The notes under the pieces are model-generated. The model had not been told where the DNA came from. It saw nothing but the letters and a program-made list of their open reading frames with translations, and searched no databases. A stretch of DNA of 64,000 nucleotides from Chondrosia reniformis. Lineage: Eukaryota > Porifera > Demospongiae > Chondrillida > Chondrillidae. The first letter of the stretch is position 1. Every line of letters starts with the position of its first letter. The DNA lies in assembly GCA_947172415.1 (NCBI GenBank), contig OX359190.1:1054001-1118000 (forward strand), given 5' to 3'. Positions 1,289 through 41,748 of this stretch are shown here, one piece after another. The position numbers were made by a program, and so were the translations under genes.

Positions 1289-4200
1289 TTAATTACAAAG
1301 AAAAACAAGTGAAAGTTGCTTGTCCTCTTGCAGATTCTGTAGAATCTCTTCATGTACCGGATACTTGACAGATGTATCTTGAAGCACTTTACAAAATAGC
1401 CTCAATGTCTCCTCTGTACCAGTACTCAGGAGGTGACGGAGAAAGATTACATTGGATTCTTCTCTGCTCTTTGCTGCTTTGATTTCATCGTACACCTTGT
1501 CTGTAATTAGTGGCTTTCCACCCACTCCCTGGTATAGTTCATTGACTATGTTGCCAATGGCGAGGTCTTTCACAAGGAAAACCCAATGTTTGGTCCGTAA
1601 GGTCTGCTTCCAACTGCCTCCCTCCCCATCACACTCTCCCGAGTTGGCAGATGATGTTGGCTGTCTAACAACTTCAGATCCTCCTGTACAGGTAGACTGG
1701 TCTTTATAGAGAAGGAACTGGTCTCTGTCAAATTTCACTTTACCAGCTACGCTCAACTATACAGAAGATATAAAATCAATAAATTACTTGTGTCCAAATA
1801 ATAACAATAATAACATATTATATAGCGTCGGTAGCAGCAACATTAGAATGTAAAATATACAGTCAATAATTGCTACATTCGTGATAAGGTCTATTTTGTT
1901 GAATACATAATATTATGCAAACTTACATTGGTGTTGCTGTCCTGTTCCTTAGCAACCCAAACCAACTCTCTTGGAGTTAGTCCAGTCATCTTGTTCAGTC
2001 TGGTACACAGACCCTTTCTCTGGTTGCCGACTTCAAATCGCAGAAGATGCAAACTGGATCCCTCACAATTCTGGTGACTGCAAATGACCCCATCCTCTAG
2101 AGTGGCTTTCTCTTCAAGAAACTCTGCACCAAATACTACCTCACTCACGTAACAAATGCGCTCGTACATCTCCCTTCTGATGTGCCTGCAGAGCTCAGAC
2201 AAGGACGGCTCTGTGTTTGGAAAGTCCTCAGGAACCAACAGTTGAAGCTGAATGAGATCTTCCTTTTGGGAAAGAGCAATGTGGGCATTTTCTTGTGTGA
2301 AAATGAACCTTCTACTGTCAGACTGCTTGTGGTAGTATCTCCACTGCTTTCGTCTCAACTGCAATGGCCTTACTTCCTCCTCGTTTAAAACCTGTCTGCC
2401 ACTTGCAATATCCACAGCCAGTCTGTGGAATAGACCAGTTGGTACACAGCTGTATCTCTCATATTCGTCAGATTGGAATGAGAAAGTGAATCCCAAAGTG
2501 GCCACAGATGCTTCAGGTAGGTGGATCTGCCTCTCAGGAAGGACTGCTGGAATGAAGTGGCGTGTCTCATTACCACTCAATTTGGCTGCAATACCAACAT
2601 TTTCTAGGACTTCCAGGAGCCATCTTGTTGGGATGTCAGCATCAATGCCTAGCTGCCGAAACAAGGCCTCAGAAACAGCTTCAGAAATCACACCTTTTTT
2701 AATGAATTTGCATAGCTCAGGACTTGAGGATTTTCTTGGGCCATACTGGACCGATAGTACTTTGGACATTTCCTTGTACAGAAAGGTTGCATCTGTACAG
2801 ATCCACTGCTCTTTGTACTCACTCAGGTCAAAGTACACATAGAACCCAAGGCAATGAAACAGGTTCAGCAGTGCAAGGAACTGTCCATCAGCATCTACAC
2901 CTTGGATGTAGTTGCATTGGATGCAGAACTCTTTCAGTTCTCTGAACTTCCACATCTTCTTTTTCACGCTAGATGTGATTAGTTGCAGGCAGAACCAAAC
3001 TTTGGGAACTTTCAATGTTAATCGATTCTTGGGATCTGAAAGTAGAGAACGAAGAACATTTACAGCTTTACGAGTGTGCTCCATCATCTTGCTGTCTCCC
3101 TGTAGCTGACTGTCCACTACAAAGTAGCTACTAGCACCTTTGTAGGCTTCTGGGGGGAATACCCTGTTGCTCTCATATGGCTTGTTGTCCATTTCTTCTA
3201 GAACCTTCTTATTGTGGTCCAGTAGAGCTCTCTCGGCTTCAGGATCTTTGGGAAGAAGGGAAAGGTGAGTGCCAACAAGGAAAATGCGAAGTTGGGGCTC
3301 ATTAGGCATGTCAAATTCTTCCAACTGGCGCTTGCTCTTCATTGACATTGTGTAGGCAGCTGTAATGGACTCCTTCATCAATTCCCAGGTTGAACGGCTG
3401 TTAGCGCTCGGCACTTCAGTGACTCCATCTTGACAGTAAGCATTAATGTATGGATCTGTCAACCTCTCCGAAGCTTTAAAGACGTGCAAGAAGTTGCAGG
3501 GAAAGTCCAGTAGAAGTGGAATGACATTCTGAAAGGAGGGCTGGCCTCCTGTGTCCAAGAGGTAAATAAACGTGCACTCTTTTTCATCAAATTCTGCTTC
3601 AGTGGAGAGATTGTGCTTCTGCAGGAAGCTGTCCCTGGCTTTCTGTAGCAGCTCCAGTGGGTCTTGTACTGTTAAAGCCTCAGTGGTATCATGGCTAGGA
3701 GGAGGAGGGGTTATGGAAGTGTCGGTTGGTAGCTTGGTCGTCTCACTGGCTATCTCGGTTGTCTTGGCAATATCACCAGCTAAAGTGGTATCATCAGATG
3801 AAGCCTGTGGAAGAGAGACAGGTGGGGTTTCCAGAGTGCTGCCCGGAAAGACCTCCCTTTCCTCCATTTTAATCTTTGAAATAAGCTGCCCTAGCTTTTC
3901 ATCTGTTAAAACTTTCCAGGAAGAACCAACTGCTAAACCTTTAATGAAATCATACTCCTCTTCCTTCCCCTGGCCTTCCTCCTCAAATCCTGTCCTAATA
4001 GTTTGCTCCCCAGCAATGGTGGCCACTTCAGGAGCTTCCAGCACTCCAGTGCTAGTTTTGTCTTTTCTTGCTGTGTTGTGGAGCAGGTAGTGCTTCAGTG
4101 AGGTTTTACCAACACGTGAGCCTCCTGTGAAGATTGCACGACTAATGCTCACTTCAACTGAACCATGTCCTTCTATGGCTTCTTCATACCACTTTGGCCC

Positions 4201-7200
4201 CTGCATGGGATATACCAAGAATAGATATATAGCTATCATAGACAATTGAGATTAAGCATAATATGCATGTGTTTACAATGTAATACACATTGAACACATT
4301 TGAAGTATTGACTATTCTCACCAATAAGTCATTCTATGAATAAGGAGTTTCAATTTTTCATTATCCTAATTCGAGGGTAATCAGTTTATTATTCCTCAAA
4401 CGCCTGCTACAGTTCACATGTGATCAACTAGAAACTACGTACTTTAACGTCCTCTATGGAGTGTCCTAAATGGTGTTTTCTTTATCAGTTCAACCTGTTA
4501 TTCGCTGTATTCAAAGACACCACTTTTACTATCATTTGGAGGTAGACCATTGTCACAGAAATCGGAAGACTTTAATCTAAATTACATCCTTCTGAAGGCT
4601 TTCAGTTATGTAACACAACTTGGCTGTAGCTGTACTATTTGTTAAAACATTTACAGGTTCATAAATACAGATCTTTATCTTACATCACACTCTTATCAAT
4701 AAGAGTAGAATAGGGTCTTGATTAATTAGATAATCCATTGCTACATGTGAATGCTATATAAGTATTGTCATTGCCTAACTTCACATTAATTACTTTTCAA
4801 CAGTTTACCCACAAAGGGACAGTCTGTGTTTATAAACAAACATTCTTTTGACAATTCAGTCAGTAGGTCAATATTATTGGTGATGCTTAGCTTTAGGAAA
4901 ACTAGCAAGAAGCATCTTTAGAGAACAGTCAATTCAGCCAAGTAATACAGTCAATACCCGACATCTCTTCTAAACATTCACTGACACATTCATTTGACTT
5001 CTGTTTACTTACCTTGAACAAGACAAATTGTATAATTTAAAAACGTGGCAACTCTCTTCTTTTTAATAACAGACAAAAATAACGGCGCCCAAAAATTAGA
5101 CTAAGACTAATTGAATACTAAAATAAAATGGCGGACTTCGCCTTGGGACGCTTCCGTGCCTAGCAGTTAACTCTCGTTGTGTTAGAAAATAGTTTATTAA
5201 ACGTGTCTACAACTAACATTTCTGTACTACCAACATCTTATAACTAATCACACGAACGTTCACAGTACAAGAAATTAACATACGTACGTACGTGGTACGC
5301 GATAATAAACAGTTTAACTACAGCGGATAATACTTTGAACGCTTTCCTCTACTTTCTCACTTCAAATGCAAAGAACAAGAAGACTTAACAGTCTTCGTTA
5401 GTGGAAACAAGTTAACACTTAAACTCGTGAGAGCGTTCGTAGAACACACTCGTACGAGAACATTATTAAAGCAACACAAGTCTTGTTAACATTGACACGC
5501 GCTTCGTGTACACTGAGCGCACAAGTTAGGTGACTCTAACGAAGGAAATAAAACCTTCTAATGTTTCTATTTGAAGGAGAAAGTGCATGCGAAGCGCGCA
5601 ACGAATGTTGACAAGACTTGTAATACTTAAATAGTTTACTAACCTTAACTGCAATATCGTACTGTACAGCTCTTGTCTGATATTCTCCTAATAATCCTTC
5701 ACTTCCTCCAAATGTGAGAAATGTAGTTCCGTTGAGGGAAGCCGTACAATTGTTGCGATAAGACGTTTTTTCACTAATTCGTGTCCACTTCTTCTTCTCG
5801 AAAATGAAGATTCCTTTTGGTCCTACTATGACTGGTAGTGTGCTGTATTGTAATAGTGAACTGTCCTCTGGTGCATACTCGAGCTGTTCCCAGTGATGTT
5901 CATCATTTGTTGTGAGTGAAGCCATAAAATTCTTCTTATTCATTCTCCAAAAATATCCACTGATCCAGTGGTAGATGTAAATGTATTCACCACACAATGA
6001 CATGTGGTGTCCTGATAATGGTCGAGGAAGTTTCAGATTCGACTGTATCCATATTCTTTTGTTAATATCCAGGAATTCAATTGTCTCTACTCCTTCGCCA
6101 TCTGCTCCTCTTCCTCCAGAGACAATTATTAAGTCTCCAAATGCAAGAACACCTGGAAAGGCTCGGGCGGTGTGCATTGGAGGATATAGTACTTTCCATT
6201 CTTTGCCTGTCCACGTCACTAGATCGTTTGTAGGAATGCGACGAGTGTCTCTACCTCCTATTAAAGTAAACTGGTTTCCTATGATGGCTGCTCCACTGTC
6301 ATAATGAGGAGGTCGAGGCAGTGTTGACCATTTAGTGTTCTTAATATTGTAAACCTGAACCTGTTCCTCAATGCCACCATAGACGAATACACTTTGGAGA
6401 TGTGTAAGTGCTTTAGCATAGGATGTTCCACTTAAAATTTTGGGGATATTGGTGGAGTTGAGAAAATGACCTCCTCCAGCTCTGAGGAGGTCACTGAGAA
6501 AGATCTAATTGAGATAAGAAACATTTACTGATTGAAGCGTGTCTGCTTGGAAACTCTCTATAAATTAGCACACACGGATATGTAAGTTTTCAGTAGCAGT
6601 TTATTACAAGAAACCTTTGAGTTACAGTCTGTAAATCATGCAGTCTGTTTGTACAAAGTCCAACTTAACAGAATGTAAAGAGTCATTTCAGCGTTTACTG
6701 TCTAATAGTCTATTAAATCTGAACCTCCTCAACGTGCACCAGTTAAACATTCTGCCACTATATGGATGAGCGGCGTACTTCGCTTTCTAAACTGTTCCTT
6801 AGAAGCCTACGAATTTCAAGGTTGCATTTCGCTAGCTAGTTTGAGCGAGGTTTTGCATAACCCAACTGTGTCGCAGTATTCTAAACAAAGAGACTTTGGG
6901 CAAGGGTCTCTGAAAGCTAAAGGTGTGACTGTTAGAGAATTCTCGGGTAATACCACTATTTCAATCTGACGAGTTGGACGCATTTCAAAGACTGAACTAG
7001 TTTCTATTATCCGCTACAAGACCTGACTAGATATTTCCTGCGCTGAATGGTACTATTTGCTGTAACGAGTTTCATATATACTGGCAGAACATGTAGTTTG
7101 CTAAATTAAACTGAACTCATTTTGACCGGTGAAAGGTTAGCGACTGTGAGTCTATATAGTAACGCCCACTTCTACGAGAAACTGAATGAATAAATTAACT

Positions 7201-7218
7201 CACTTTATCTTTGGACAT
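1289..7218 (-). CDS. R1: kelch-Roc-COR-CARD protein, intact copy
   Basis: Four exons keep one frame, all joined in phase 0: 7204-7218 (MSKDK, donor GTGAGT), 5644-6504 (kelch), 1927-4200 (Roc-COR), 1289-1756 (CARD-like), stop TAA at 1289-1291; about 1205 residues. The kelch exon (residues 6-292) has six blades with YGG, IGG and SGG turns. The Roc exon has a P-loop GGSRVGKT at about 318, switch II DTGGQ at about 508 and VGTH at about 601, where the usual guanine-specificity Asp (THxD) is Ser. COR-like helices with NLFHCLGFYVYF and WICTDATFLYKEM follow at about 690-850, then a Cys/His cluster (CSHQNC) near the exon end. The last exon is helical and resembles a CARD. Known: Roco GTPases cycle and dimerise through COR; CARDs recruit by homotypic contact. 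Inferred: a cytosolic sensor, as no signal peptide or membrane segment is seen. The first-exon join is the least certain step. Confidence 0.8.
4201..5643 (-). other. R1 intron 2, conserved between copies, with an AAAATGGCGG motif
   Basis: This 1.4 kb intron separates the kelch and Roc exons. No exon with supported splice sites is seen in it. The kelch-proximal part (about 5030-5640) is nearly identical in R1, R2, R3 and R4, and holds AAAATGGCGG at 5125-5134 plus a run of ACGT palindromes near 5281. Such a motif resembles YY1-type initiator elements of animal promoters, so an internal promoter is possible. R2 carries an extra stretch of about 230 bases in the equivalent intron (about 20090-20320). 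Confidence 0.4.
5644..6504 (-). other. R1 kelch-propeller exon (287 codons)
   Basis: Acceptor CAATTAG ends at 6505 and donor GTTAGT starts at 5643; the exon is open throughout and phase 0 at both ends. It encodes six kelch-like blades, each with a hydrophobic strand, a Gly-Gly or equivalent turn (VFVYGG, FTLIGGRD, IIVSGG, YIYIY, IFIFEK, FLTFGG) and in several blades a Trp (NTKWSTL, KEWKVL, RIWIQS, HHWEQL, KKWTRI). Residues that differ from the other copies sit in the turns: HYD before SGAAIIG, AF before PGVLAFGD, SG before HHMSLCGE, ED before SSLLQYST, RNN before CTASLNGT. No in-frame ATG lies near its 5' end, so translation must start in another exon, which supports the short first exon at 7204-7218. 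Confidence 0.85.
6505..7203 (-). other. R1 intron 1 with an open stretch of unknown status
   Basis: Between the first exon and the kelch exon the minus strand holds a reading frame kept open in R1, R3 and R4. In R1 it runs from about 7013 (after a TGTAG that could be an acceptor) to a TGA near 6827. It begins RIIETSSVFEMRPTRQ and ends LKLASEMQP. No donor that would join it to the kelch exon in frame is seen. It may be an alternative exon ending in a stop, an upstream reading frame, or chance. Confidence 0.25.
7204..7218 (-). other. R1 first coding exon, MSKDK
   Basis: ATG at 7216-7218 is followed by four codons and a GTGAGT donor. R3 and R4 have MSAIDK followed by the same donor at 33000-33017 and 49552-49569. 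The phase (0) matches the kelch exon. It is very short, but the ATG and donor are kept in three copies while the surrounding sequence varies, which is the main support. Confidence 0.5.
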
Positions 7219-8123: not shown

Positions 8124-9043
8124 TTAGCAGTCAAAACTATCAGTTTTAGTCAAACTGGTCTGACTGTGCCCAATGATGAAGGGTTGACCAGAGGTAGTCG
8201 ACCATCTTCTTGACACCTCTGGTTTGGAGGAGGTGCTGCGGATGGTGGAAGGAGTGTTGGAACGTCTCGCATCCTTCTCATTGATGGACCCCAGGACAAA
8301 GTTGAGAGAGCCTTGGGACAGTCTACTGTCTCTTTTAGTTTCCCTGGGGGAAAACCCTTCTGGTGTTGGAGGTAATTGCTGAGACAAATAACTATCACAT
8401 CTCTGATCATGAGGTGATGAATATCTTATATAGTGGGTGGAGCCTTGGGAGAGGGTACTTTCCCTCTTAATATCTCCTACTGGACTAAAAGTAGGGGAGT
8501 TTTGAGACAGATTTGAGAAGGGCTTTTCCCTCCTAATGACTATATCAGGATAGTCTGAAGTTTGAGACATTGGAGCAACTCCCATTTTATAGTTTTTATC
8601 TGGTGACTGTTGAAGGTTGTCCTTAAACTTGTCGTACTCCCAGTTGGTGATGGGTGTCTCAGGAGTCCCACAAGAGCTCTCTGCAAGGTTGAGGTCAGTA
8701 GGGAGGGACACTGCACTATCTGATGAGTTTTGGAGATCTGCCGGTTTCCTCAACAAGCCAGTCTCATTGTCAGTTTTTAGGTTCAAATTTAAGAGTGGAG
8801 GCTTTTCGTCTTTGTTTTCTGTACTCTGGTTACTCCCTTTAACACTAATTGGGGCATTCTCCCCACCGTCATCAAAGGCATTGTTGGGCTTTTGAACACC
8901 ATTTGGAACTGATCCATTTGCAGATTTGTTGTTTCCGTTGGATGAGGAATGGTAGCCAGTGTATGAATCTCCAAAGCCTTGCTTGTCATTTCTGTTTTGT
9001 CTCCATTTGCATATGAAACAGGCAAATATTCCAATTAACACAC
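8124..9043 (-). other. SemaA last exon: membrane helix end and cytoplasmic tail
   Basis: The acceptor TTTTCAAG ends at 9044. The exon starts GVLIGIFACFICKWRQNR, a hydrophobic stretch followed by basic stop-transfer residues. The tail is rich in Ser, Asn and Pro. It has four imperfect repeats of the form S-x-L-S-Q: FSNLSQNS, ESTLSQGS, DSYLSQQL and DSRLSQGS, several preceded by basic residues (KRES, KRDS). There is a PPTPEG segment that could bind SH3 domains. The tail is nearly identical in SemaB and was inherited by the SemaC and SemaD remnants. Confidence 0.85.
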
Positions 9044-12000
9044 CTTGAAAAGGACAAGATTGGAAACACATTAAAATGGTGTATGATGAGTGGTATATTC
9101 AGAATTCCATTGTTACAATAAATTTTGTATCAAATGTCTACTTTAGTGAAAGCCACACTAAATAACCAACCCAGTAGGTGAGCACTTAAAAACAGCCATA
9201 AAATAGAGGTCCCAATTTATTGTAAATGGTATTTTCTCGATTACTATATCTGATGATTATACATTTCATGTATTACTGTACGTTACTGTGGAGCTGATGT
9301 TTCCTTTGAATGAACACTGATCACATGACATACTCACCAACAACAAGTCCTATGATCACTCCAATACCTAATGGCCACCAATCAATCTCATCGTCACCAT
9401 CTCCTGCTACTACAAGCTTCTCGGTTACCTCTATATTACAAGATACAGATCACATACTATTATAACTAATATATAAAACTACATTAAAGTAAGAATTGAA
9501 TGTATCTTTTGGATGGTACATCTTTCAACTTGTTGAGTGTCTAAAGATACAGTTTTGGCATTTTGATCTCGAGTGTCTTCATCAGCGACTGAGAGATACC
9601 ATAGAATACCAAAACCTATGTCTTCAGATGCTCAACAAGTCTAAAGATCATGTTCCATCCAAAATATAAAACTACTTGTAACAACACCAGTGTTACTGTA
9701 CCCCCAACAGACATACAAGTGTATTAGTAGAATAAAACAGTAAACAGTAAATGTTCCCTCTTAACAGGTAATGTGATATTTGGCTAACTTGGTGTCGGAG
9801 TAGCTGTAGTTTGAATTACTGTTGTTGATTTAGCTGTTGTTGTGAGGCTGTTAGGTTCTGTTCTAGTAGGAGGAGGAGGAGTGCCACCACGACCTACAGA
9901 GAGGGGAAGGGGTGGATTAGACAATGGAACTAGACTGAACTGGAATGTGGAGAGGTGAGGTAGGGAGGTGAGGTGGAGAGGGTGAAATGGGAGGTTGAGA
10001 TGGAGGAACTGCAGAGAGGGTGCATTACACAGCACAAGTGTGATTCCCTACCTGTACAGATACCTTCATATCCATTAATTAAATCTTGAAATAGGGAAGT
10101 AGGATCAGTTGAGCTGAAAATAAAAATAAAGTTACTCTATATACCTCTAGGAAGGTCAATTGCAACATTATTCTTTAGAAAACATTGCCTATTAATCCAT
10201 AAAGAAATGAAAGAAATACAATATACGTAAAATATTCTAGTACACCATTTTTTTTACATGCTACATCTACGTTTGAGTAAAGGCCTATATGAGACTAAAT
10301 CTAGTGAGAGCTTTGGATGAGGATACAAGAGTCTTCTCCTTCTTCTTCTTCTCCACTGGGGCTTCGTGTATTACAAAATTGGCAGAAGAATATTCATCAA
10401 CTGTTTATTAACCAAATACCAAAGTATGTAAGACTAAAATGTACACATAATTAAAACAAAATGGCTACTCATAAGTACTGACCTACTGATGGAGACACAC
10501 TTATTCTGTTTGAAGTCGTATGCACAGTGTGGATCTAGACTAGTCACACAAGAAGAGCAGCCATCGTAAAGAGTACAGTCATCAGTGTCAATGAGGTACA
10601 GTCCACCTTCCGCTGTTATGTACATCTTGGTCTCCTGTAAGTACCACAACCACAGGACAGTCACACTTAGTGAAGACTTGTATGTACATTCAAATAGTAC
10701 TTAGTAGAGTGTGCAACATGAATATTCCAAATGATCATGGAAAGGATAAATAAATGTCAACCTAGCGAGCAACAATTGAAGCAAAAAGCATGGTATGACA
10801 ATTTTTTATATTATTAACTAAAATGTTCATTTCTGCTGACATTTAAGGGTCACAAAATCTTTTAGTTACAAACGATAGAATATTACTCTAAACACTCATT
10901 GTGTTATTCCAGTTGCTGCGATTATGCTCAGTAACTCTCAATAATCAGTACCCTCTATGCAGAAATGAGCCTTTACAGTATTACTCTAAACACTTACATT
11001 AACAAGTTTCATTCTCTTTCCTTCAAAAGAGTCATAATTACTCCCTCCTTCCTCCCCAGTAGGGAGGTTCATCTTGTAGCTGACATGGCTGGCCTTTGCT
11101 TCCCCTCTCTCAGTACTATAAGTCAGCTTGTACAAGTACAGCTTCTTCTCAACTACAAAACAACAAACATTTATAAAGCGATGAGAAAGCAGTAGGAAAA
11201 TGGTTTGTAATTTGGTATAGAAGACCAATCTCAACTGATGAAATGTCACAAAATGTGTCACTTTGTAAACCAGTAGCTCTGACAGTATTCCAATGACAAA
11301 AAATTCAGAGAATCATATACACCTCCCTAATGTATTACATAGGTACAGTGGATCTCAATAATTCATTGTTTCCAATGTGTTCTCCCAAACTCCACATTTC
11401 AACTCATTTTGGTGTAAACAGAGCTTTGAGTGCGAAGGGCAGTTATTGTGACAAGTCAACTTACATTTGTGTGTACTCAGAGCATAGACAATTGTGTACT
11501 TCTTTGAATCCAAACCTGTTGCCGTGCCAACCACTACACGTTTCAGCCTAACAGATTTAAATCAACAAACTTTCTGATGATGACTTTTAAGAGTAATAAT
11601 GTTTTATATGCTGTACACACACACAATTAAAGGTACTGTTTACTGTGATATAGAGTATGAATCACCTTTCTCCGTCAGCTATCAAATGAGTAGCAGACTT
11701 TAGAATGGACTCTTCATTAGTAATAACTGCTTTAGACAAAGTTACATCTGTAATTTGGTCCATTGTACGATTGACTGAAGTCTCGCACTAAAAGTAAATT
11801 GAAGGTGATACTAATGAGACATGCCATACAGTACTATACACATTATAGACTTTGAATATCACTAATGGGATTTCTAGATGAGCGATAATTAAGGCGTCCA
11901 GTGAATACAACTTACAGTAACAGATGGTCCATTGACTGATTCACCAGTTTTAAAGTTGTGCAGTTCTCCAGACTCCAAGGCCGTTACAATCTTCTCCACG

Positions 12001-14914
12001 TCAAACACACAAATAGCTGAAGAGGATACAACTTGTTTTCCATGCGGATGGGACATCTGGAATGTAGTGTATATCATTGGCTTCATAACCTTTTGATCCA
12101 AACTTGCCTTCTCCACATAAACAGCGTCAACTGAAGACAGAAATAAAAGATAATGTTTGAGGTGGTTCATCTTTAGTCTCCTGAGCATCTAGAGAATCCT
12201 CTATATGAGTAGTGAGTTGGATATACAGAGCAGGGCTTTCCCCATATCATCATTACTACACTCTGGATATTACTGTAATGATGATGATATCAATGCTTTT
12301 ACGTAGATCAACTTTAAATCTTAAAGTTTCCCTATTTTTCCAGGGCTTACCTATATAAGGAAATACGTAGTGCTGGTTGAGGTCCCCTGGAGAAGAGGCA
12401 TTGCAAACGAGTGTGGTCTTCACAAAGGACCGGAACACCTTCAGTGTCAGCCTGTCATCGTATATGCCAATGTCATCCTACAAACAGAATACAAGTTGAA
12501 ACAGTTCCCTCACAGCACCTAACAGAGTCACTAGTTTAGTAGGCTCCACCCACAGGAAATGGATCTAGTAGGCTCTGCCCACAGGAAATGGATCTAGTAG
12601 GCTCGGCCCAAAGGAAATGGATCTGGTAGGCTCTGCCCACAGGAAATGGATCTAGTAGGCTCTGTCCACAGGAAATGGTTCTGGTAGGCTCCGCCCACAG
12701 GAAATGGATCTGGTAGGCTCCGCCCACAGGGAATGGATCTGGTAGGCTCCGCCCACAGGAAATGGGTCTGGTAGGCTCCGCCCACAGGAAACAACCATAA
12801 CACATGTAACTGTTGTCTGGCTTTCTCTGTGGTAGTGATGGCTTACCTTACACACTCTACCAACTCTGGACACCACTTGCCACTTCCTTTCGATGGCCTT
12901 CTCCCAAAAGAAGATGTACATGTAGTCGCCCATTTCCAGAATGTTGGCAAAACCAGCGTTATTGAACCAGAACCTCCTCTCCAGATCAGCGTTCAGCCAA
13001 AGAACTTTAGAGCGGTCCAGAGCAAAGTTTGTTCTGTCAAACCAGATGGAATTGGCTATATCGGATTCACTTATGCTAACACTCCAAAACTCATTGTCTC
13101 CTGCAGGTACAGTAAAGATCATACAAGAACAGATAAGTTGTGCAGAAAATATAATTCAGTGTTGCCAGTAGAAATTGCAGAAAATGGTGCATAAACCAAA
13201 ATTTTTTTTTTCTTCTAGTAAACATCTCTATGTACCTTAGGGAATTTGTGTACCAAGTTTGAGTGAAAGTCTCTTCTTTATGAAGGAGATACGGTCAATT
13301 AAAAATATCTTTTTACCATATTGAAATATACGACAGCCATTTTTCGATAAATAACTGTGATTTCTATCGGCAGCATCACATATATAATCCCAAATTAAAT
13401 ATATATCATGTAAGCATGGCCTACGTGTTACAAAACTATTGCACTGCATAGACAAGTGAGTTTAACAGGTACATAATTACTGTATATACTCAATGTATGA
13501 CCTTTGACCTCCGTACCTTCAACAAAGGTCTCCACTGGAATGAAGTTGTAATATGAAGAGAACCCACTTCCGACCTTCTCTCGGATGAGTTGATTGAGGT
13601 TTGAACGCTGTAGACACATTAGAACAAGAAGAAGTTGAGGAAAACGAATAATAGTCTATTTTCATTGCTACTGCCTACCCTAGGGGTGGGGGGAGGGGAG
13701 GTGTTACTATACCTCAGGGCTAGTTGGTGGAGTAGCAGCTACTGAAATATGCATCATTGCAGCAGGGGAGGAAATTGTGTATTAATCATGTGATAATCAT
13801 GTGACATCCTTACATTTCTGTATCCACAGATTGGGAGGTGTGTATTAGCTGTGCAATACAGAACGGTCTCATTGATGGGAACGCTAGCACCAGTGATACT
13901 CTTCACGGTGATGCCAGTCGAATCAGATTGGGGCAGCAGTACCAGCATCTTCTTACATTCTTCAATTTGATCGGAAAAGTGAAAATTTCTATTATCTGTA
14001 TCTGTGAAATTGTTTGGTAAATCTACAGACTGAGAGAAGATAGACTATTCACAAGTGGCCACTATGGAGAGGTGGTCACATTAGAGAGGTGGTCGCACTA
14101 GAGAGGTGGTCACATTAGAGAGGTGGTCACCCTAGAGAGGTGGTCACACTAGAGAGGTGGTCACACTAGAGAGGTGGTCACACTAGAGAGGCGGTCACAC
14201 TAGAGAGGTGGTCACACTAGAGAGGTGGTCACTAGAATGCGTAGGATCACATGGAACATGGTGATTTCAAATCCTTAATTCTACACTTATTTTAACAACA
14301 CAGGAGAATGTACTCTACTGGTGACAGTTCTGTTATGTGCAGAGGGAGGAGGTGCTGCTGGAATAACAATGACAAATATAGTCAGATCAACCTTCAACTC
14401 TCAACAAACAAGAAAGTAGAAGAGACAAAGGACCAGAATAGCAAATGGAAGAACATGGACATGTACGTATGTACGCATGTGGACAAATCTAACAGAATGT
14501 CTTCAGGGTGGATGTGTGAGGCTTAAAGATAAATAATTTAACATTCTGTATTCAAGGAATGGAAATGATTTGGGAAAATTTGCTTCCCCCAAGATCTTTA
14601 AGAGAAATTTTGCCTTTTTTTCCTGAAACCCTCTAATGGAGAAACAAAGTCAAATTCCTATGATTGGTCGTAATAGGTTCCAATTCTCACTGAGGAGACT
14701 TCTGGTATATACTGTGCAATACATGAGCATTCCAACCACTTCCTTTTAAATACCAGCTTAGCCTAGTCGTTGTCATAGTTATCAGTTGCCATGACAATAC
14801 TCGTACATTCACAGTATATATATGTACATAATAAAATGCAAATAAATGTAAAGTAAAAGGAAACTCACTTGAATTATTTGTGACAAATCCGAGGAATACT
14901 CCACCAGTTTGTGT
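8124..14914 (-). CDS. SemaA: transmembrane semaphorin
   Basis: Fourteen exons join in one frame: 14869-14914, 13814-14022, 13517-13607, 12847-13100, 12351-12477, 11916-12130, 11666-11787, 11465-11547, 10998-11152, 10483-10634, 10052-10113, 9789-9893, 9338-9430, 8124-9043. All have GT..AG borders and matching phases; about 877 residues as far as seen. The Sema domain (about 1-434) shows EECKKMLVLL and LYCTANTHLPIC (compare the family's CGTNAFxPxC), EKAIERKW, SRVGRVCK and SSAICVF. A PSI domain follows (CSSCVTSLDPHCAYD), then a Pro/Thr linker, one membrane helix (WWPLGIGVIIGLVV continuing into GVLIGIFACFICKW across a splice junction) and a Ser-rich tail of about 300 residues ending SFDC. Known: semaphorins act on the cell surface and usually signal through plexins. 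The signal-peptide exon is not identified; a weak candidate (MNSLPLPLTF, donor GTACAA) lies near 15451. Confidence 0.88.
9509..9666. mobile_element. foldback (MITE-like) element in SemaA
   Basis: About 155 bases with inverted ends of about 30 bases. The left end reads TTTGGATGGTACATC and TTTCAACTTGTTGAG; the right end is its imperfect reverse complement (CTCAACAAGTCTAAAG, then GTTCCATCCAAA). It carries no coding sequence. A second full copy is at about 36058-36210 in SemaB, a decayed copy at about 53845-53975, and a half copy at about 23880-23928. It lies between SemaA exons 9338-9430 and 9789-9893. Confidence 0.6.
10240..10360 (+). repeat. dispersed short repeat, copy 1
   Basis: About 120 bases containing CATGCTACATCTACG, AAGGCCTATA, GAGCTTTGGATGAGGATACA and a CTTCTTC run. 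Related copies lie at about 36785-36890 (same orientation), 54590-54730 and 55985-56110 (opposite), and 56970-57065 (same). No coding capacity or clear terminal repeats are seen; it may be a SINE or a decayed MITE. Confidence 0.5.
10483..10634 (-). other. SemaA PSI-domain exon
   Basis: It encodes ETKMYITAEGGLYLID and then CTLYDGCSSCVTSLDPHCAYD, the cysteine spacing and DPxC signature of the plexin-semaphorin-integrin module that follows every Sema domain. Acceptor TTACAG and donor GTCAGT flank it. The identical exon in SemaB is at 37027-37178. Confidence 0.9.
12533..12795. repeat. 29-base tandem repeat in a SemaA intron (9 copies)
   Basis: The unit contains GGCTCCGCCCACAGGAAATG and then GATCTGGTA. 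SemaB has 7 copies at the same place (39072-39265). Each unit holds a GC-box core (CCGCCC) and an AGGAAATG resembling an ETS site. As 29 is not a multiple of 3, it reads open in all three minus frames, giving spurious proteins rich in WAEPTRS and GGAY. Confidence 0.85.
14060..14234. repeat. 17-base minisatellite in SemaA intron 1 (10 copies)
   Basis: The unit AGAGAGGTGGTCACACT is repeated about ten times with a few substitutions. SemaB carries about 17 copies (40782-41072), so the array has changed length since the duplication. It lies between the first two recognised Sema exons. Confidence 0.85.
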
Positions 14915-16786: not shown

Positions 16787-19700
16787 TTATAAACGGAAAA
16801 CAAGTGAAAGTTGCTTGTCCTCTTGCAGTTTCTGCAGAATCTCTTCATGTACCGGATACTTGTCAGATGCATCTTGAAGCACTTTACAAAACAGCCTCAA
16901 TGTCTCCTTTGTACCAGTACTCAGGAGGTGACGGAGAAAGATTACATTGGATTCTTCTCTGCTCTTTGCTGCTTTGATTTCATCGTACACCTTGTCTGTA
17001 ATTAGTGGCTTTCCACCCACTCCCTGGTATAGTTCGTTGACTATGTTGCCAATGGCGAGGTCTTTCACAAGGAAAACCCAATGTTTGGTCCGTAAGGTCT
17101 GCTTCCAACTGCCTCCCTCACCATCACACTCTCCCGAGTTGGCAGACGGTGTTGGCTGTCTAACAACTTTAGGTCCTTCAGTACAGGTAGACTGGTCTTT
17201 ATAGAGAAGGAACTTGTCTCCATCAACTTCCATTTCACCAGCCACGCTCAACTATACAGAAGAAAATATAAAAATCAATAAATTACTTGTGTCCAAAGAA
17301 TAACAATTAGCATATTAAATAGAGTCCGTAGCAATGTAAAATATACAGTCAATAATTGTTACACTCGTAATAAGGTCTATTTTGTTGAATACATAATATT
17401 ATGTAAACTTACATTGGTGTTGCTGTCCTGTTCCTTAGCAACCCAAACCAACTCTCTTGGAGTTAGTCCAGTCACCTTGTTCAGTCTGGTACACAGACCT
17501 GTTCTCTGGTTGTCACTCTCAAATCGCAGAAGATGCAAACTGGATCCCTCACAATTCTGGTGACTGCAAATGACACCATCCTCTAAAGTAGCCTTTTGGG
17601 TGAGAAACTCACTTCCGAAAACAGCTTCGCTTATGAAAGCAATTCGCTCTTTCATTTCCATTCTGATACACCTGCAGAGCTCTGTCAAAGAGGGACCAAA
17701 CTGAGAAACGTACTTAGGAACCAGCAGTTGGAGCTGAATGAGGTCCTCCTTCTGAGAAAGGACAATGTGGGCGTTCTCTTGGGAGAAATAGAATTGTGTA
17801 CTGTCAGATTGACTGGAACAGTACACCCACTGGCTTCCACTGATGTATGCTTGCTTGATCTGCTGATCCTCAAGAGCCTGTCGGTTGCTTGCAATGTCCA
17901 CAGCCAGTCTGTGGAATAGACCAGTTGGTATGCAGGTGTACCTCTGATATTCAAATGCTGAATGGAATGAGAAAGTGAATCCCAAAGTGGCCACAGATGG
18001 TTCGGGGAGATTAATTTCCCTTTCAGGAAGGGCTGCTGGAATGAAGTAGTGTGTCTTCTTCTTTGTCACTTTGGCTGCAATACCTATTTTTACCAGGACC
18101 TCAAGGAGCCATCTTGTTGGAATATCAGCATTGATACCTAGCTGTTGGAACAAATCTTTAGAAGTTGCTTCAGGAATTTCTCCACTTTTCCTTAAGTTAC
18201 GTAACTCTGGACTAGAAGATTCACTTGGGCCATACTGGACCGATAGCACTTTGGACATTTCCTTGTACAGAAAGGTTGCATCTGTACAGATCCACTGCTC
18301 TTTGTACTCACTCAGCTCAAAGTACACATAGAACCCAAGGCAATGAAACAGGTTCAGCAGTGCAAGGAGCTGTCCATCAGCATCTACACCTTGGATAAAT
18401 TGGCATCGGATGCAGAACTCTTTCAGTTCTGTGAGCTTCCACATCTTCTTTTTCACGCTAGATGTGATTAGTTGCAGGCAGAACCAAATTTTGGGAACTT
18501 TCAATGTTAATCGATTCTTGGCATCTGAAAGTAGAGAGCGAAGAACATTTACAGCTTTACGAGTGTGCTCCTTCAGTTTGCTGTCTCCCTGTAGCTGACT
18601 GTCCACTACAAAGTAGCTACCAGCACCTTTGTAGGCAACCTCTTTTGGGGGGAATACCCTGTTGCTGTCATATGGCTTGTCGTCCATTTCTTCTAGAACC
18701 TTCTTGTTGTGGTCCAGTAGAGCTCTCTCAGCTTCAGGATCTTCGGGAAGAAGGGAAAGGTGAGTGCCAACAAGGAAAATGCGAAGTTGGGGCTCATTAG
18801 GCATGTCAAATTCTTCCAACTGGCGCTTGCTCTTCATTGACATTGTGTAGGCAGCTGTAATGGACTCCTTCATCAATTCCCAGGTTGAACGGCTGTTGGC
18901 ACTCTCCACTTCAGTGACTCCATCTTGACAGTATGCATTAATGTACGGATCTGTCAACCTCTCTGAAGCTTTAAAGACGTGCAGAAAGTTGCAGGGAAAA
19001 TCCAGTAGGAGTGGAAGGACATTCTGAAAGGAGGGCTGGCCCCCTGTATCCAGGAGGTAAATGAACGTACACTCCTTCTCATCAAATTCTGCTTCAGTGG
19101 AGAGATTGTGCTTCTGCAGGAAGCTGTCCCTGGCTTTCTGTAGCAGCTCCAGTGGGTCTTGTACTGCTAAAGCCTCAGTGGTATCATGGCTAGGGGGAGG
19201 AGGAGGGGTTATGGAGGTGTCGGTTGGTAGCCTGGTTGTCTCTCTGGCTATCTCGGTTGTCTTGGCAATATCACCGGCTAAAGTGGTATCAGCAGATGAA
19301 GCCTGTGGAAGAGAGACAGGCGGGGTTTCCAGGGTGCTGCCTGGAAAGACCTCCCTTTCCTCCATTTTAATCTTTGAAATAAGCTGCCCTAGCTTTTCAT
19401 CTGTTAAAACTTTCCAGGAAGAACCAACTGCTAAACCTTTAATGAAATCATACTCCTCTTCCTTCCCCTGGCCTTCCTCCTCAAATCCTGTCCTAATAGT
19501 TTGCTCCCCAGCAATGGTGGCCACTTCAGGAGCTTCCAGCACTCCTGTGCTAGTTTTGGCTTCTCTTGCTGTGTTGTGGAGCAGGTAGTGCTTCAGTGAG
19601 GTTTTACCAACACGCGAGCCTCCTGTGAAGATTGCACGACTAATGCTCACTTCAACTGAACCATGTCCTTCTATGGCTTCAGCATACCACTTTGGTCCCT

Positions 19701-22249
19701 GCATGGGGTATACCAAGAAGAGATATGTAGCTATCATAGACAATTGAGATTAAGCATAATATGCATGTGTTTACAATGTAATACACACTTCACATATTTG
19801 AAGTATTGACTATTCTCACCAATAAGTCATTCTATGAATAAGCAGTTTTCAATTTTTCATTATCCTAATTCGAGGGTTATCAGTTTATTATTCCTCAAAT
19901 GCCTGCATGCTACAGTTCACATGTGATCAACTAGAAACTACTTTAACGTCCTCTATGGAGTGTCCTAAATGGTGTTTTCTTTATCAGTTCGACCTGCTAT
20001 TCGCTGTATTCAAAGACGCCAGATTTACTATCGTTTGGAGGTAGGCCATTGTTACAGAAATAGGAAGATTTTAATCCAAATGACATTATTATACTTTAGA
20101 GTTACCATTATCAGCTCATGTCTCCTGAGGAATACAATGAGATACAACGGGAGGAATTGAAGTCCAATAATTGAACCAAACTATCCCCCTTGCCACTTAA
20201 AGACGGCCAATAAGTACTCTTACATGGTAAAGCTTGTGGTTTTCCTTATCAGCTAAGGAGGGGATAGCCATCCAAAGTGTGAATTACATTCTATTTACGT
20301 AGATACAACTTCTGAAGGCTCTTTCAAGACAGCTTTGTTATGTAACACAACTTGGCTGTAGCTGTACTATTTATTAAAACATTTACAGGTTCATAAATAC
20401 AGATCTTTATCTTCCATCACACTCTTATCAATAAGAGTAGAATTGGGTCTTGATTAATTAGATGATCCATTGCTACATGTGAATGCTACATATTTATTAT
20501 TGATTTGCCTAACTTTACACATTAATTACTTTTCAACAGTCTACCCACAAAGGGACAGTCTGTGTTTATAAACAAACATTCTTTTGACAATTCAGTCAGT
20601 AGGTCAATATTATTGGTGATGCTTAGCTTTAGGAAAACTAGCAAGAAGCATCTTTAGAGAACAGTCAATTCAGCCAAGTAATACCCGACATCTCTTCTAA
20701 ACATTCACTGACACATTCATTTGACTTCTATTTACCTTTCACTTACTTTGAACAAGACAGACTGTATAATTTAAAAACGTGGCAACTCTCTTCTTTTTAA
20801 TAACAGACAAAAACAACGGCGCCCCAAAAATTAGGCTAAGACTAATTGAATACTAAAACAAAATGGCGGACTTCGCCTTGGGAAGCTTCCGTGCCTAGCA
20901 GTTAACTCTCGTTTCTGTTAGAAAGTAGTTTATTAAACGTGTCTACAACTAACATTTCTGTACTACCAACATCTTATAACTAACCACACGAACGTTCACA
21001 GGACGAGAAATTAATATACGTACGTAGCACGCGATAATAAACAGTTTAACTACAGCGGATAATACTTTGAACGCTTTCCTCTACTTTCTCACTTCAAATG
21101 CAAAGAACAAGAAGACTTAACAGTCTTCGTTAGTGGAAACAAGTTAACACTTAAACTCGTGAGAGCGTTCGTAGAACACACTCGTACGAGAACATTAAAG
21201 CAATACAAGTCTTGTTAACATTGACACGCGCTTCGTGTACACTGAGCGCACAAGTTAGGTGACTCTAACGAAGGAAATAAAACCTTCCAATGTTTCTATT
21301 TGAAGGAGAAAGTGTACGCGAAGCGCGCAACGAATGTTAACAAGACTTGTAATACTTAAATGAGTTTACTAACCTTAACTGCAATGTCGTACTGTACAGC
21401 TCTTGTCTGATATTCTCCAAATCCTCCTCTTCCACTTCCTCCAAATGTGAGAAATGTAGTTCCGTTGAGGGAAGCCGTACAAGTACCGTCATAAGACGTT
21501 TCTTCACTAATTCGTGTCCACTTCTTCTTCTCGAAAATGAAGATTCCATCTGGACCTACTAGGACTGGTAGTGTGCTGTATTGTAATAGTGAACTCCACA
21601 CTGGTGCATTCTCGAGCCGTTCCCAGTGATGTTCATCATTTGTTGTAAGTGAAGCCATAAAATTCTTCTTATTCATTCTCCAAAAATATCCACTGCCCCA
21701 GTAGATGTAAATGTATTCACCACACAATGACATGTGGTGTAGTAATAATGGTCGAGGAAGTTTCAGATTCGACTGGATCCATATTCTTTTGTTAACATCC
21801 AGGACTTCAATTGTGTCTACTGCTTCGCCATCTGCTCCTATTCCTCCAGAGACAATTACTAAGTCTCCAAATGCAAGAACACCTGGTTCAGATCGGGCGG
21901 TGTGCATTGGAGGATATAGTACTTTCCATTCTTTGCCTGTCCACGTCACTAGATCGTTTGTACGAATGCGACGAGTGTCTCTACCTCCTATTAAAGTAAA
22001 CTGGTTCCCTATGATGGCTGCTCCACTCTCAGAATGAGGAGGTCGAGGCAGTGTTGACCATTTAGTGTTCTTAACATTGTAAACCTGAACCTGTTCCTCA
22101 GTGCCACCATATCCTGTCCCTCCATAGACGAATACACTTGGAAGATGTACAAGTGCTTTAGCAGAGGATACTGCAGTTAACATTTCGGGGATATTTGTGG
22201 TTTTCAGAAAATGACCTCCTCCAGCTCTGAGGAGGTCACTGCGAAAGAT
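16787..22249 (-). CDS. R2: kelch-Roc-COR-CARD protein lacking its first exon
   Basis: Three exons are intact and in frame: 21374-22249 (kelch, 292 codons), 17413-19698 (Roc-COR, 762 codons), 16787-17251 (CARD-like, stop at 16787). The domains follow R1: P-loop GGSRVGKT, DTGGQ, VGTHLS, COR-like helices, CSHQNC, then WKQTLRTKHW starting the CARD-like region. The kelch exon has a five-residue longer first turn (YGGTGYGGTEEQ). Upstream, the region that carries the first exon and promoter in R1, R3 and R4 is gone: the sequence follows intron 1 up to about 22627 and then jumps into sequence that elsewhere lies between R genes and semaphorins. The coding exons are undamaged, so the loss may be recent or another start (MLTAVSS inside the kelch exon) may be used. 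Confidence 0.75.
21374..22249 (-). other. R2 kelch-propeller exon
   Basis: It is open over 292 codons, phase 0 at both ends. Variable turns in this copy: HSE before SGAAIIG, SE before PGVLAFGD, LL before HHMSLCGE, VW before SSLLQYST, DGT before CTASLNGT. Elsewhere it is almost identical to R1, R3 and R4. Confidence 0.85.
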
Positions 22250-22560: not shown

Positions 22561-23820
22561 TCAAAGTTGCATTTCGCTAGCTAGTTTGAGCGAGGTTTTG
22601 CATAACCCAACTCTGTCGCAGTATTCTAATATATAGGTCAACAAGGACAGATGGTCTAACTGGAGCAATTGTATATTTGTTTGGATACAAAGAAAACTGT
22701 CAGAAAGGAGAAAATCATGCAAGTGGATCCTGGGAAAGAGACAGAACAGTAACCATGGCAACCCTTCTGGTGTTGGAGGTAATTGCTGAGACAAATAACT
22801 ATCACATCTCTGATCACGAGGTGATGAATATCTTATATAGTGGGTGGAGCCTTGGGAGAGGGTACTTTCCCTCTTAATATCTCGTACTGGACTGAAAGTA
22901 GGGGAGTTTTGAGACAGATTTGAGAAGGGCTTTTCCCTCCTAATGACTATATCAGGATAGTCTGAAGTTTGAGACATTGGAGCAACTCCCATTTTATAGT
23001 TTTTATCTGGTGACTGTTGAAGGTTGTCCTTAAACTTGTCGTACTCCCAGTTGGTGATGGGTGTCTCAGGAGTCCCACAAGAGCTCTCTGCAAGGTTGAG
23101 GTCAGTAGGGAGGGACACTGCACTATCTGATGAGTTTTGGAGATCTGCCGGTTTCCTCAACAAGCCAGTCTCATTGTCAGTTTTTAGGTTCAAAATTAAG
23201 AGTGGAGGCTTTTCGTCTTCATTTTCTATAGTCTGGTTACTCCCTTTTACACTAATTGGGGCATTCTCCCCTCCATCATCAAAGGCATTGTTGGGCTTTT
23301 GAACACCATTTGGAACTGATCCATTTGCAGATTTGTTGTTTCCGTTGGATGAGGAATGGTAACCAGTGTATGAATCTCCAAAGCCTTGCTTGTTATTTCT
23401 GTTTTGTCTCCATTTGCATATGAAACAGGCAAATATTCCAATTAACACACCTTGAAAAGGACAAGATTGGAAACACATTAAAATGGTGTATAATGAGTGG
23501 TATATTCAGAATTCCATTGTTACAGTAAATTTTGTATGAAAGCCACACTAAATAACCAACCCAGTAGGTGAGCACTTAAAAACAGCCATAAAATAGAGGT
23601 CCCAATTTATTGTAAATGGTATTTTCTCGATTACTATATCTGATGATTATACATTTCATGTATTACTGTACGTTACTGTGGAGCTGATGTTTCCTTTGAA
23701 TGAACACTGATCACATGACATACTCACCAACAACAAGTCCTATGATCACTCCAATACCTAATGGCCACCAATCAATCTCATCGTCACCATCTCCTGCTAC
23801 TACAGGCTGCCCGGTTACCT
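22561..23820 (-). pseudogene. SemaC: semaphorin remnant, membrane and tail exons only
   Basis: Two exons survive: 23728-23820 (VTGQPVVAGDGDDEI and WWPLGIGVIIGLVV) and about 22760-23450 (GVLIGIFACFICKW and the tail). The Sema and PSI exons are missing. The tail frame is intact until PPTPEG, then runs through a deletion junction near 22760 into unrelated sequence (LPWLLFCLFPRIHL) and on into the inverted R intron 1 region (VGLCKTSLKLASEMQ), stopping at 22561. The last 75 or so normal residues are lost. It has no visible start and is probably not functional. Confidence 0.75.
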
Positions 23821-23928: not shown

Positions 23929-24394
23929 AGCGAAAGAGTGGAGAGTTCCAGGTTACTACATAAACGTATACAAGCCCATGAATGGCTTCCCAATTCATTC
24001 CTTTGATAGAACAGTACCAAAATTAATCCCTACTTTCTCGCCCCCATGCAATTATTGTTGGCAGGCAGGAAGTAGGGGATAGCAAGCCAGTCTAAACCAA
24101 AATATACTGCTGCCTTTGTAGACAATTTAACTCATTCTGTCACAGTGTTCCCTCTTACAGGTTGCCTAAAACTAGTGAATGGTCCTGTTAAATCATTGGA
24201 ACATATATAGCAACTAACTTTCAAACCTTCAAACTGCTTCAACCAATAGGATAGCACAGGGATCACATGATTCCAAGTCACATGACACCAAGGATAATGA
24301 GGTGGTGCCATGGCAACAGATTCCAATTTAGGAGGATGAGGTACAGTGGGATGGTTGACAATATCTATCACTGACCTAATGAACTGATAGAATA

Positions 24395-24770
24395 TTAAGA
24401 TTGGATGAGTGGATGGATGGGTGGGTGGATGGATGGATGAGTGGATGAGTGGATGGATGGATGAGTGGATGGATGGATGGATGAGTGGATGGATGAGTGG
24501 ATGAGTGGATGGGTGGATGAGTGGATGAGTGGATGAGTGGGTGGATGGATGAGTGGATGAATGGATGGATGGATGGATGGATGAGTGGATGTATTGGGTG
24601 GATGGATGGGTGGATGAGTGGGTGAGTGGGTGGACTAGTGGATGAGTGGGTGGATGGATGGGTGGGTGAGTGGGTGGACTAGTGGATGAGTGGGTGGATG
24701 GATGAGTGGATGCATTGGGTGGATGAGTGGGTGGACTAGTGGATGAGTGGACGGACTAGTGAACGGACTG
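24395..24770. repeat. GGAT-based minisatellite in the CEP70 duplicate
   Basis: Tandem GGAT, GAGTGGAT and GGGTGGAT units fill the intron between the fifth and sixth CEP70-type exons. The reverse strand reads as Thr-His-Pro and Ile-His-Pro repeats, which is an artefact. The full gene has about twice as much (58725-59530). Confidence 0.9.
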
Positions 24771-40600: not shown

Positions 40601-41748
40601 CACAATGGATCTAGATATATGAGACTGCCATATATAGACTCACGAGCTCTGGTTGAGAACGTAAACTCTTCTTACATTCTTCAATTTGATCGGAAAAGTG
40701 AAAATTTCTATTATCTGTATCTGTGAAATTGTTTGGTAAATCTACAGACTGAGAGAAGATAGACTATTCACAAGTGGCCACTATGGAGAGGTGGTCACAT
40801 TAGAGAGGTGGTAGCACTAGAGAGGTGGTCACATTAGAGAGGTGGTCACACTAGAGAGGTGGTCACATTAGAGAGGTGGTCACATTAGAGAGGTGGTCAC
40901 ACTAGAGAGGTGGTCGCACTAGAGAGGTGGTCACACTAGAGAGGTGGTCACACTAGAGAGGTGGTCACACTAGAGAGGTGGTCACACTAGAGAGGTGGTC
41001 ACACTAGAGAGGTGGTCACACTAGAGAGGTGGTCACACTAGAGAGGTGGTCACACTAGAGAGGTGGTCACTAGAATGCGTAGGATCACATGGAACATGGT
41101 GATTTCAAATCCTTAGTTCTACACTTATTTTAACAACACAGGAGAATGTACTATAATGGTGTCAGTTCTGTTATGTGCAGAGGGAGGAGGTGCTGCTGGA
41201 ATAACAATGACAAAGAGAGTCAGATCAACCTTCAACTCTCAACAAACAAGAAAGTAGAAGAGACAAAGGACCAGAATAGCAAATGGAAGAACATGGACAT
41301 GTACGTACGTACGCATGTGGACAAATCTAACAGAATGTCTTCAGGGTGGATGTGTGAGGCTGATAAATAATTTAACATTCTGTATTCAAGGAATGGAAAT
41401 GATTTGGGAAAATTTACTTCCCCCAAGATCTTAAAGAGAATTTTTGCCTTTTTTCCCTGAAACCCTCTAATGGAGAAACAAAGTCAAATTCCTATGATTG
41501 GTCGTAATAGGTTCCAATTCTCACTGAGGAGACTTCTGGTACTGTGCAATACATGAACATTCCAACCACTTCCTTTTAAATACCAGCTTAGCCTAGTCGT
41601 TGTCATAGTTATCAGTTGCCATGACAATACTCGTACATTCACAGTATATATACGTATGTACATAATAAAATGCAAATAAATGTAAAGTAAAAGGAAACTC
41701 ACTTGAATTATTTGTGACAAATCCGAGGAATACTCCACCAGTTTGTAT
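34660..41748 (-). CDS. SemaB: transmembrane semaphorin, paralogue of SemaA
   Basis: Fifteen exons keep one frame: 41703-41748, 40644-40741, 40299-40460, 40002-40092, 39325-39578, 38888-39014, 38453-38667, 38203-38324, 38002-38084, 37538-37692, 37027-37178, 36599-36660, 36332-36436, 35874-35966, 34660-35579; about 894 residues as far as seen. Domains are as in SemaA: Sema, PSI (CSSCVTSLDPHCAYD), Pro/Thr linker, one membrane helix, Ser-rich tail ending SFDC. It differs by 234 bases where SemaA has one exon: here there are two exons with a 183-base intron (donor GTGAGT, acceptor TGTAG), adding SLRSQPEL and IPSYCHVDV. The signal-peptide exon is not identified. Confidence 0.87.
36058..36210. mobile_element. 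foldback (MITE-like) element in SemaB
   Basis: Same element as 9509-9666, at the equivalent intron position, so it was present before the segmental duplication. Its arms pair GATGGTACATCTTTCAACTT with AAAGATGTTCCATC and CTCAACAAGT. Confidence 0.6.
36785..36890 (+). repeat. dispersed short repeat, copy 2
   Basis: It matches the copy at 10240-10360 (CATGCTACATCTACG, AAGGCCTATAGGGAACTAAA, GAGGATACAAGAATCTTC). It sits at the same intron position in SemaB, so it predates the duplication. Confidence 0.5.
39072..39265. repeat. 29-base tandem repeat in a SemaB intron (7 copies)
   Basis: Units of TAGGCTCCGCCCAAAGGAAA followed by TGGATCTGG. Most copies have CCCAAAGG where SemaA has CCCACAGG, so the arrays have been homogenised separately. 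Confidence 0.85.
40782..41072. repeat. 17-base minisatellite in SemaB intron 1 (about 17 copies)
   Basis: Same AGAGAGGTGGTCACACT unit as in SemaA, but longer and more uniform over its second half. Confidence 0.85.

Follow-up and report, generated by a model that had tools for sequence, protein, structure and literature searches.

How does a propeller keep an almost invariant framework while short groups of its residues change completely from one copy to the next? The question is raised by a 64,000-nucleotide stretch of the genome of the sponge Chondrosia reniformis (assembly GCA_947172415.1, contig OX359190.1, positions 1,054,001 to 1,118,000; hereafter the window), in which four repeated genes, R1 to R4, each carry a kelch propeller exon. 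The variable residues recur at the same register of successive blades, replacement changes there exceed neutral expectation, and the loops concerned are shuffled between copies. We consider it reasonably probable that these genes are members of a large family of NLR-like intracellular receptors arranged in tandem, with a diversifying kelch sensor face. The four kelch exons of the window are:

5644 to 6504, minus strand: R1 kelch exon, six blades with hypervariable DA and BC loops (PF24681, 50 bits; Kelch_3, 37.3 bits)
21374 to 22249, minus strand: R2 kelch exon, by sequence match
31440 to 32300, minus strand: R3 kelch exon, by sequence match
47996 to 48856, minus strand: R4 kelch exon, by sequence match, intact

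Variable positions on the kelch propeller

The position and strand of the R1 kelch exon were confirmed, and its kelch motifs exceeded the curated cut-offs (in brackets) for PF24681 at 50 bits (50), Kelch_3 at 37.3 (22), Kelch_6 at 32.1 (25.3) and Kelch_1 at 24.8 (20.1). The family kelch profile matched kelch chains in the PDB with E-values down to 7e-26. Each propeller is predicted to have six blades, with the double glycine replaced by GP in blade 5 and by HW in blade 4. A preliminary description of the window had called the R1 to R4 propellers nearly identical except at one hypervariable spot per blade, which translates into 82–86% amino acid identity of R2–R4 to R1. The five variable groups it named were found again on re-reading: HYD/HSE/SPSL/HSE before SGAA, AF/SE/YS/SW before PGVLAFGD, SG/LL/SR/SY before HHM, ED/VW/GY/RF before SSLLQYST and RNN/DGT/HFT/DFT before CTASLNGT (together the 12 flagged residues). 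Among the 35 close copies of the exon other than R1–R4, the flagged columns had a mean entropy of 2.04 bits compared to 0.43 at the other 270 (Mann-Whitney p = 8e-7). Eleven of the 12 were truly variable, and the remaining one, H67 in the first group, was almost constant (0.17 bits). The variable spots do share one register in successive blades, as had been proposed, but there are two per blade rather than one and all six blades have them; blade 1 is variable as well, though it lies outside the initially flagged groups.

When the register is numbered from the start of the double glycine, the six blades had a mean entropy of 2.54 bits at −14 (1.4–3.2 per blade), 1.62 at −15, 2.13 at +2 and 1.19 at +3, whereas the stretch from −13 to −1 had 0.03–0.41 bits apart from a few positions. 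The spots at −15/−14 and from +2 onwards correspond to the DA and BC loops. Peaks at the same positions were obtained from 60 more distant proteins (2.41 bits at −14, 2.23 at −15 and 2.96 at +2) and from 19 further close proteins (2.33, 1.74 and 2.04 bits, respectively). By the same count, we take the ligand contacts of Keap1 to lie at −14/−15 and +2/+4. In the profile alignments, TRRS and RRG motifs of kelch chains with solved structures stand opposite the motif preceding the variable pair, in agreement with the Keap1 register. The Keap1 ligand pocket is formed by the DA and BC loops, with contacts including Arg415, Arg483, Ser508, Ser363, Asn382 and Arg380 (PMC4668279). The variable sites would thus occupy, as first suggested, loops corresponding to those that contact the ligand in Keap1, where they form one face. 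Sites called positive by the liberal site-wise test described below made up 36 of 72 residues in the DA and BC loops and 4 of 70 in the AB and CD loops, a contrast that illustrates rather than proves the point, as loop limits were set after the register table was seen. The BC loop of blade 4 (R1 residues 179–182) consists of 36% Tyr, 18% Asn, 12% Trp and 11% Asp, with additional length changes, a composition that recalls antibody binding loops.

The family extends well beyond the window. We searched the genome (117,379,552 bp in 15 contigs, with the window at C2:1054001-1118000) with the R1 kelch exon and retained 100 of the 137 matches listed, having dropped 7 fragments and 30 distant kelch matches (32–41% identity). 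About 100 copies, R1 to R4 among them, is a lower bound, as scoring covered the best candidates only. There were 39 close copies with 81–87% identity to R1 (R1 itself apart) and 61 distant copies with 54–74%. Of the 100, 95 lie on C2, three on C5 and one each on C13 and C7. C2 is presumably chromosome 2 of C. reniformis. The published assembly comprises 14 chromosomes and the mitochondrion (117.37 Mb), and its chromosome 2 measures 10.29 Mb (PMC12181767). The two protein sets above came from 120 listed proteins of a public collection: the 60 distant ones (after 11 fragments were dropped from P0050–P0120) and the 19 further close ones, 4 of them on a 10,530,910-bp contig and 15 on other contigs, none identical to the 39. 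On one contig of 800,150 bp in the collection there are 12 close copies that all differ from the 39 (best match 81–88%), and on another of 260,068 bp three copies identical to A09, A11 and A16. These contigs may represent the alternate haplotype reported for the assembly (PMC12181767), although the chromosome contig of the collection measures 10,530,910 bp instead of 10,288,994 bp. Other kelch clusters (32–37% identity) were seen at C7:6.02–6.12 Mb, C14:0.60–1.08 Mb and C12:5.92 Mb.

Replacement excess and exchange of loops between copies

Nucleotide tests covered the 39 close copies (30 for introns, 20 for the GTPase region and 19 for GTPase counts), with the 61 distant copies outside them. 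Nucleotide diversity at positions 1 and 2 of flagged codons was 0.452 (30 copies, 24 columns), and the value was the same when R1–R4 were left out. The neutral yardsticks for the same 30 copies were 0.101 for introns (1005 columns) and 0.099 for fourfold sites (57 columns), while positions 1 and 2 of the remaining kelch codons gave 0.046 (420 columns). Eleven of the 24 flagged columns lay above the 99th percentile of introns, 7 above the 99.9th and 1 above the intron maximum. Nei-Gojobori ratios of nonsynonymous to synonymous change (dN/dS) for the 35 close copies other than R1–R4 were 2.94 at flagged columns and 0.85 elsewhere. The GTPase encoded downstream of the propeller is conserved: in a matched control of 19 genes, the ratio of nonsynonymous to synonymous differences (pN/pS) was 0.42 for the GTPase, 1.09 for the kelch exon and 0.41 for the kelch framework, and sites called positive numbered 2 of 764 in the GTPase compared to 32 of 282 in the kelch exon (liberal test).

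Site-wise dN/dS, the check proposed in the preliminary description, was estimated with a custom FUBAR-like grid model over the 282 kelch sites. It called 58 sites at 0.9 and 49 at 0.95, including 9 of the 12 flagged columns, but the test is liberal under recombination; positive sites numbered 35 with per-blade trees and 64 with a star tree, and null simulations with free recombination returned 17–22 false positives of 282 at omega 0.4 and 52–63 at omega 1. Linkage in the family is near the state where every codon has its own genealogy. Because the test is liberal when copies recombine, these counts were not used as proof and our verdict rests on tree-free tests. In simulations at matched divergence (omega 1, theta 0.12), 0–2 columns exceeded 1.8 bits of entropy (maximum 2.01), and at excess divergence (theta 0.30) this rose to 4–9 columns (maximum 2.40). 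The 35 observed copies had 26 such columns with a maximum of 3.11 bits, beyond both null simulations.

Could mutation without selection, or error, have produced the same picture? Local hypermutation or relaxed constraint would account for loop changes that appear fast relative to the flanks and for third positions of flagged codons that are somewhat raised (0.244, replacement changes included). However, under relaxed constraint diversity should not rise above the neutral level, which the loops exceed about 4.5-fold, and hypermutation should raise silent sites too. Silent third-base diversity was 0.062 in the 14 variable loop columns with fourfold codons in at least 12 copies (0.305 and 0.259 at positions 1 and 2 of those codons), compared to 0.084 in 89 single-amino-acid columns, and copies with an identical amino acid shared its codon in 98.9% of cases at variable-called sites versus 93.3% elsewhere. 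As silent third bases in loop codons were not elevated, the local mutation rate does not appear to be raised. Together with the replacement excess, this supports diversifying selection on the predicted face, as the preliminary description had suggested, and makes hypermutation or relaxed constraint very improbable. Assembly or alignment error, a concern already voiced in that description, deserves attention in tandem arrays, which are hard to assemble, and the GTPase frame of R4 is broken. The assembly is nevertheless a long-read one with a quality value (QV) of 69.8 (PMC12181767), 95 of the 100 kelch exons are stop-free, and 33 of the 39 close exons have a 100% match in the public protein collection. 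Variation at replacement positions, moreover, recurs at one register in the 39 exons and in the sets of 60 and 19 proteins, and we regard an artefact as hardly credible.

The loops are also exchanged between copies. Mean r2 among 60 biallelic sites was 0.171 at less than 10 bp, 0.073 at 10–30 bp and approximately 0.04–0.05 beyond, and 37 of the 39 copies have distinct combinations of 12 loops. Loop difference was unrelated to flank divergence (rho 0.013, p 0.78 over 435 non-independent pairs): in the quintile of pairs with the least diverged flanks (1.8–3.5%), 62% of flagged residues differ, and in the other four quintiles 65–71%. Given that loop divergence is independent of the flanks and linkage fades within about 30 bp, short-tract exchange shuffles the loops. 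The exons of A07 and A24 are 97.8% alike while their flanks are 24.9% and 7.1% apart, as expected from exon-sized gene conversion. Copies A12 and A30, approximately 7 Mb apart, have a rare BC6 word in common within a 57-bp identical run, and 75% of their flagged residues differ.

Gene architecture and its nearest known systems

Beyond the kelch exon, each proposed gene of the window has a GTPase region and a CARD-like open frame, in the order kelch, GTPase, CARD-like. The corresponding features are:

7204 to 7218, minus strand: proposed R1 mini first exon, ATGTCCAAAGATAAA (MSKDK), followed by the donor GTGAGT, by sequence reading
1927 to 4200, minus strand: R1 GTPase exon, divergent and Roc-COR-like, with P-loop GGSRVGKTS and DTGGQ (Roc E 0.006, COR-A E 0.002, below cut-off)
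1289 to 1756, minus strand: R1 CARD-like C-terminal exon (CARD E 0.028, below cut-off)
17377 to 19749, minus strand: R2 GTPase open frame, by sequence match
16787 to 17251, minus strand: R2 CARD-like open frame (CARD E 0.0042)
27793 to 30330, minus strand: R3 GTPase open frame, by sequence match
27136 to 27555, minus strand: R3 CARD-like open frame, 50% identical to that of R1 (CARD_2 E 0.032)
44189 to 46587, minus strand: R4 GTPase region, split over two reading frames, from open frames
43627 to 44091, minus strand: R4 CARD-like open frame (CARD E 0.0022)

This architecture is widely repeated. A GTPase exon with P-loop and DTGGQ was present in all 20 loci fetched, in one piece in 19 and in two frames in R4, which may be a pseudogene or carry an assembly error in its GTPase region. 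A CARD-like exon followed in 19 of the 20, and the remaining locus ends just past its GTPase. Of the 59 GTPase exons scored across the genome, 57 are preceded on their own strand by a kelch exon no more than 8 kb away; conversely, 36 of the 39 close kelch exons have a downstream GTPase exon and, of the other three, A02 and A14 have one in the fetched loci. In 16 of 20 loci, a proposed mini exon (ATGTC...|GTGAGT, read by eye) precedes the kelch exon by 630–790 bp. The predicted R1-type protein would be approximately 1,200 residues long and, as no signal peptide or membrane segment was seen in it by eye, probably cytosolic. Roc matched 25 and COR-A 11 of 41 relatives at E ≤ 0.05, and in R1 the two matches, although below cut-off, stand in the right order. 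CARD or CARD_2 matched all five window exons (E 0.0022–0.032), none above cut-off, so we name them CARD-like only. These exons come in different types: that of R3 has only half its residues in common with that of R1, and in some of the loci L031–L050 the matches reach only 37–57% or there is an additional incomplete copy; the effector end thus differs between genes as well. PF00619 scored above cut-off near kelch exons at C7:6036029 and C12:5934414/5937176, and kelch-CARD pairs may thus occur elsewhere in the genome. No NACHT, LRR, WD40 or HET family was matched at E ≤ 0.1 by the R1 kelch, GTPase and CARD-like exons, nor BTB or BACK at E ≤ 0.1 by the seven R1–R4 exons scanned, and a phage search with the GTPase found no match.

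The kelch genes alternate with another gene (8124–9098, 22561–23505, 34660–35634 and 51228–51851, minus strand), whose product spans the membrane and has a long cytoplasmic tail; over 300 bp of the tail exon, the four copies are 98–100% identical. In the R1 unit, this gene has a PSI domain above cut-off at 10434–10700 on the minus strand (E 2.4e-6), and it resembles a semaphorin or plexin relative, its Sema domain being presumed. A Sema-domain search of the genome found no match, but was uninformative as control genomes gave none either. Long arrays of short tandem units, which translate as peptide repeats in three frames, lie at 24132–24755 and 58484–59695, approximately 35 kb apart, and tandem repeats of 29 bp (12537–12923 and 39073–39401) and 17 bp (14021–14388 and 40757–41226) occur in two of the repeated units.

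The nearest known system in manner of working is the fungal NWD/HNWD family of Podospora (HET-E, HET-D and HET-R), of which the sponge family is not a member. Both have a propeller with a conserved framework, selection on the loops of one face and exchange between family members. Selected codons of HET-E map to the d-to-a loop and the b-c turn (PMC1805685), and a replacement excess in d-a and b-c loops was found here too (loop limits drawn post hoc). The fungal proteins pair an effector with a nucleotide-binding domain and exchange sequence between family members (PMC1805685, PMC4986451). However, their components are WD40, NACHT and HET, whereas the sponge genes combine kelch, a Roc-COR-like GTPase and a CARD-like domain; the propeller is C-terminal in the fungi and N-terminal in the sponge, and whole repeats are exchanged in the former, but the same blades of different copies in the latter. 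Brown algal LRR-ROCO candidate immune receptors are a second parallel, in which a Roc-COR GTPase is linked to a repeat sensor that diversifies under selection and exchange (PMC11378527). As described there, their LRR exons are shuffled whole and alternatively spliced and no CARD is included, in contrast to the single kelch exon and loop-level variation of the sponge. Placozoan ROCO proteins likewise join Roc-COR with CARD in an early animal, but are described with LRR, TPR, CARD and death domains and no hypervariable kelch propeller is named (PMC11378527). Animal NLRs, including sponge NACHT-LRR expansions, are comparable in forming large intracellular families that combine a nucleotide-binding switch with a death-fold domain (PMC12909245); the R1 exons differ in matching neither NACHT nor LRR. 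Keap1 and other KLHL proteins have the same six-blade kelch fold and ligand face (PMC4668279), but have BTB/BACK, which none of the sponge exons scanned matched, and Keap1 has one conserved ligand site compared to the roughly 100 differing loop sets of the sponge. We found no paper on such a family in the open-access literature (preprints and most subscription papers being outside this coverage), and the main text of the sponge NLR paper (PMC12909245) mentions neither kelch nor Chondrosia.

Candidate role in non-self recognition

A nearly constant propeller with variable loops on one predicted face is what an intracellular non-self receptor would be expected to show, and recognition of non-self, whether microbe or neighbour, is the best fit we can offer on sequence grounds. 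In such a receptor, the N-terminal six-blade propeller would be the sensor. Its DA and BC loops would form a single binding face under continuing diversifying selection, set on a conserved framework. The Roc-COR-like GTPase would act as a switch, and the C-terminal CARD-like domain would relay the signal, probably to a pathway of cell death or inflammation. Point mutation and small indels in the loops would supply new specificities, and short-tract exchange between copies would bring loops together in new combinations.

Several observations weigh against this reading. The Roc, COR and CARD matches are all below curated cut-offs, and unrelated families (Dehydrin, SCAPER_N) score about equally with CARD on some exons. 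None of the 25 matches listed in a genome-wide PF00619 search corresponds to these CARD-like exons, and the CARD and GTPase profiles found no clear relative and no Roc-COR chain in the PDB. The site-wise counts are weak alone, owing to the liberal behaviour of the test. In the most recent triplet, A27/A31/A32, each pair has only 0–1 differing loop codons and the majority of differences are found elsewhere, which speaks against very fast loop change.

Other roles for the propeller face were also weighed. The copies could be polymorphic self markers, or receptors deciding fusion or rejection between sponge individuals. Self is discriminated from non-self in sponge grafts (PMC5450542), HET-E, the nearest functional parallel, is an allorecognition gene (PMC1805685), and the non-identical copies of the 800,150-bp contig are as expected if haplotypes differ in content. 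However, some 100 copies per genome fit a repertoire better than a single-locus marker, and the proposed gene model has neither a signal peptide nor a membrane anchor. In this it differs from the animal receptors known to mediate allorecognition by cell contact, and allorecognition appears doubtful to us. Alternatively, the genes could be KLHL-like substrate adaptors that diversified without conflict, each copy with a stable endogenous partner. KLHL proteins binding different substrates do differ in their DA and BC loops (PMC10146909), but the sponge loops differ even among copies with flanks only about 2% apart, nearly all loop combinations are distinct, and BTB is absent from the exons scanned, which leaves this alternative improbable. 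Returning to non-self receptors, a more specific version can be put forward only tentatively: an animal system equivalent to fungal HET, in which a germline repertoire of about 100 cytosolic kelch-GTPase-CARD-like receptors would have its face continually re-assembled by loop-sized exchange, giving haplotype-specific specificities for sponge non-self, and perhaps also allogeneic, recognition.

For the genes of sponge non-self recognition, this family is a concrete, chromosome-mapped candidate with a predicted binding face and a testable mode of diversification. Its features suggest that a Roc-COR-like GTPase can occupy the place held by NACHT in NLRs, and that the same pair of beta-propeller loops became the target of selection and exchange independently in animals and in fungi.
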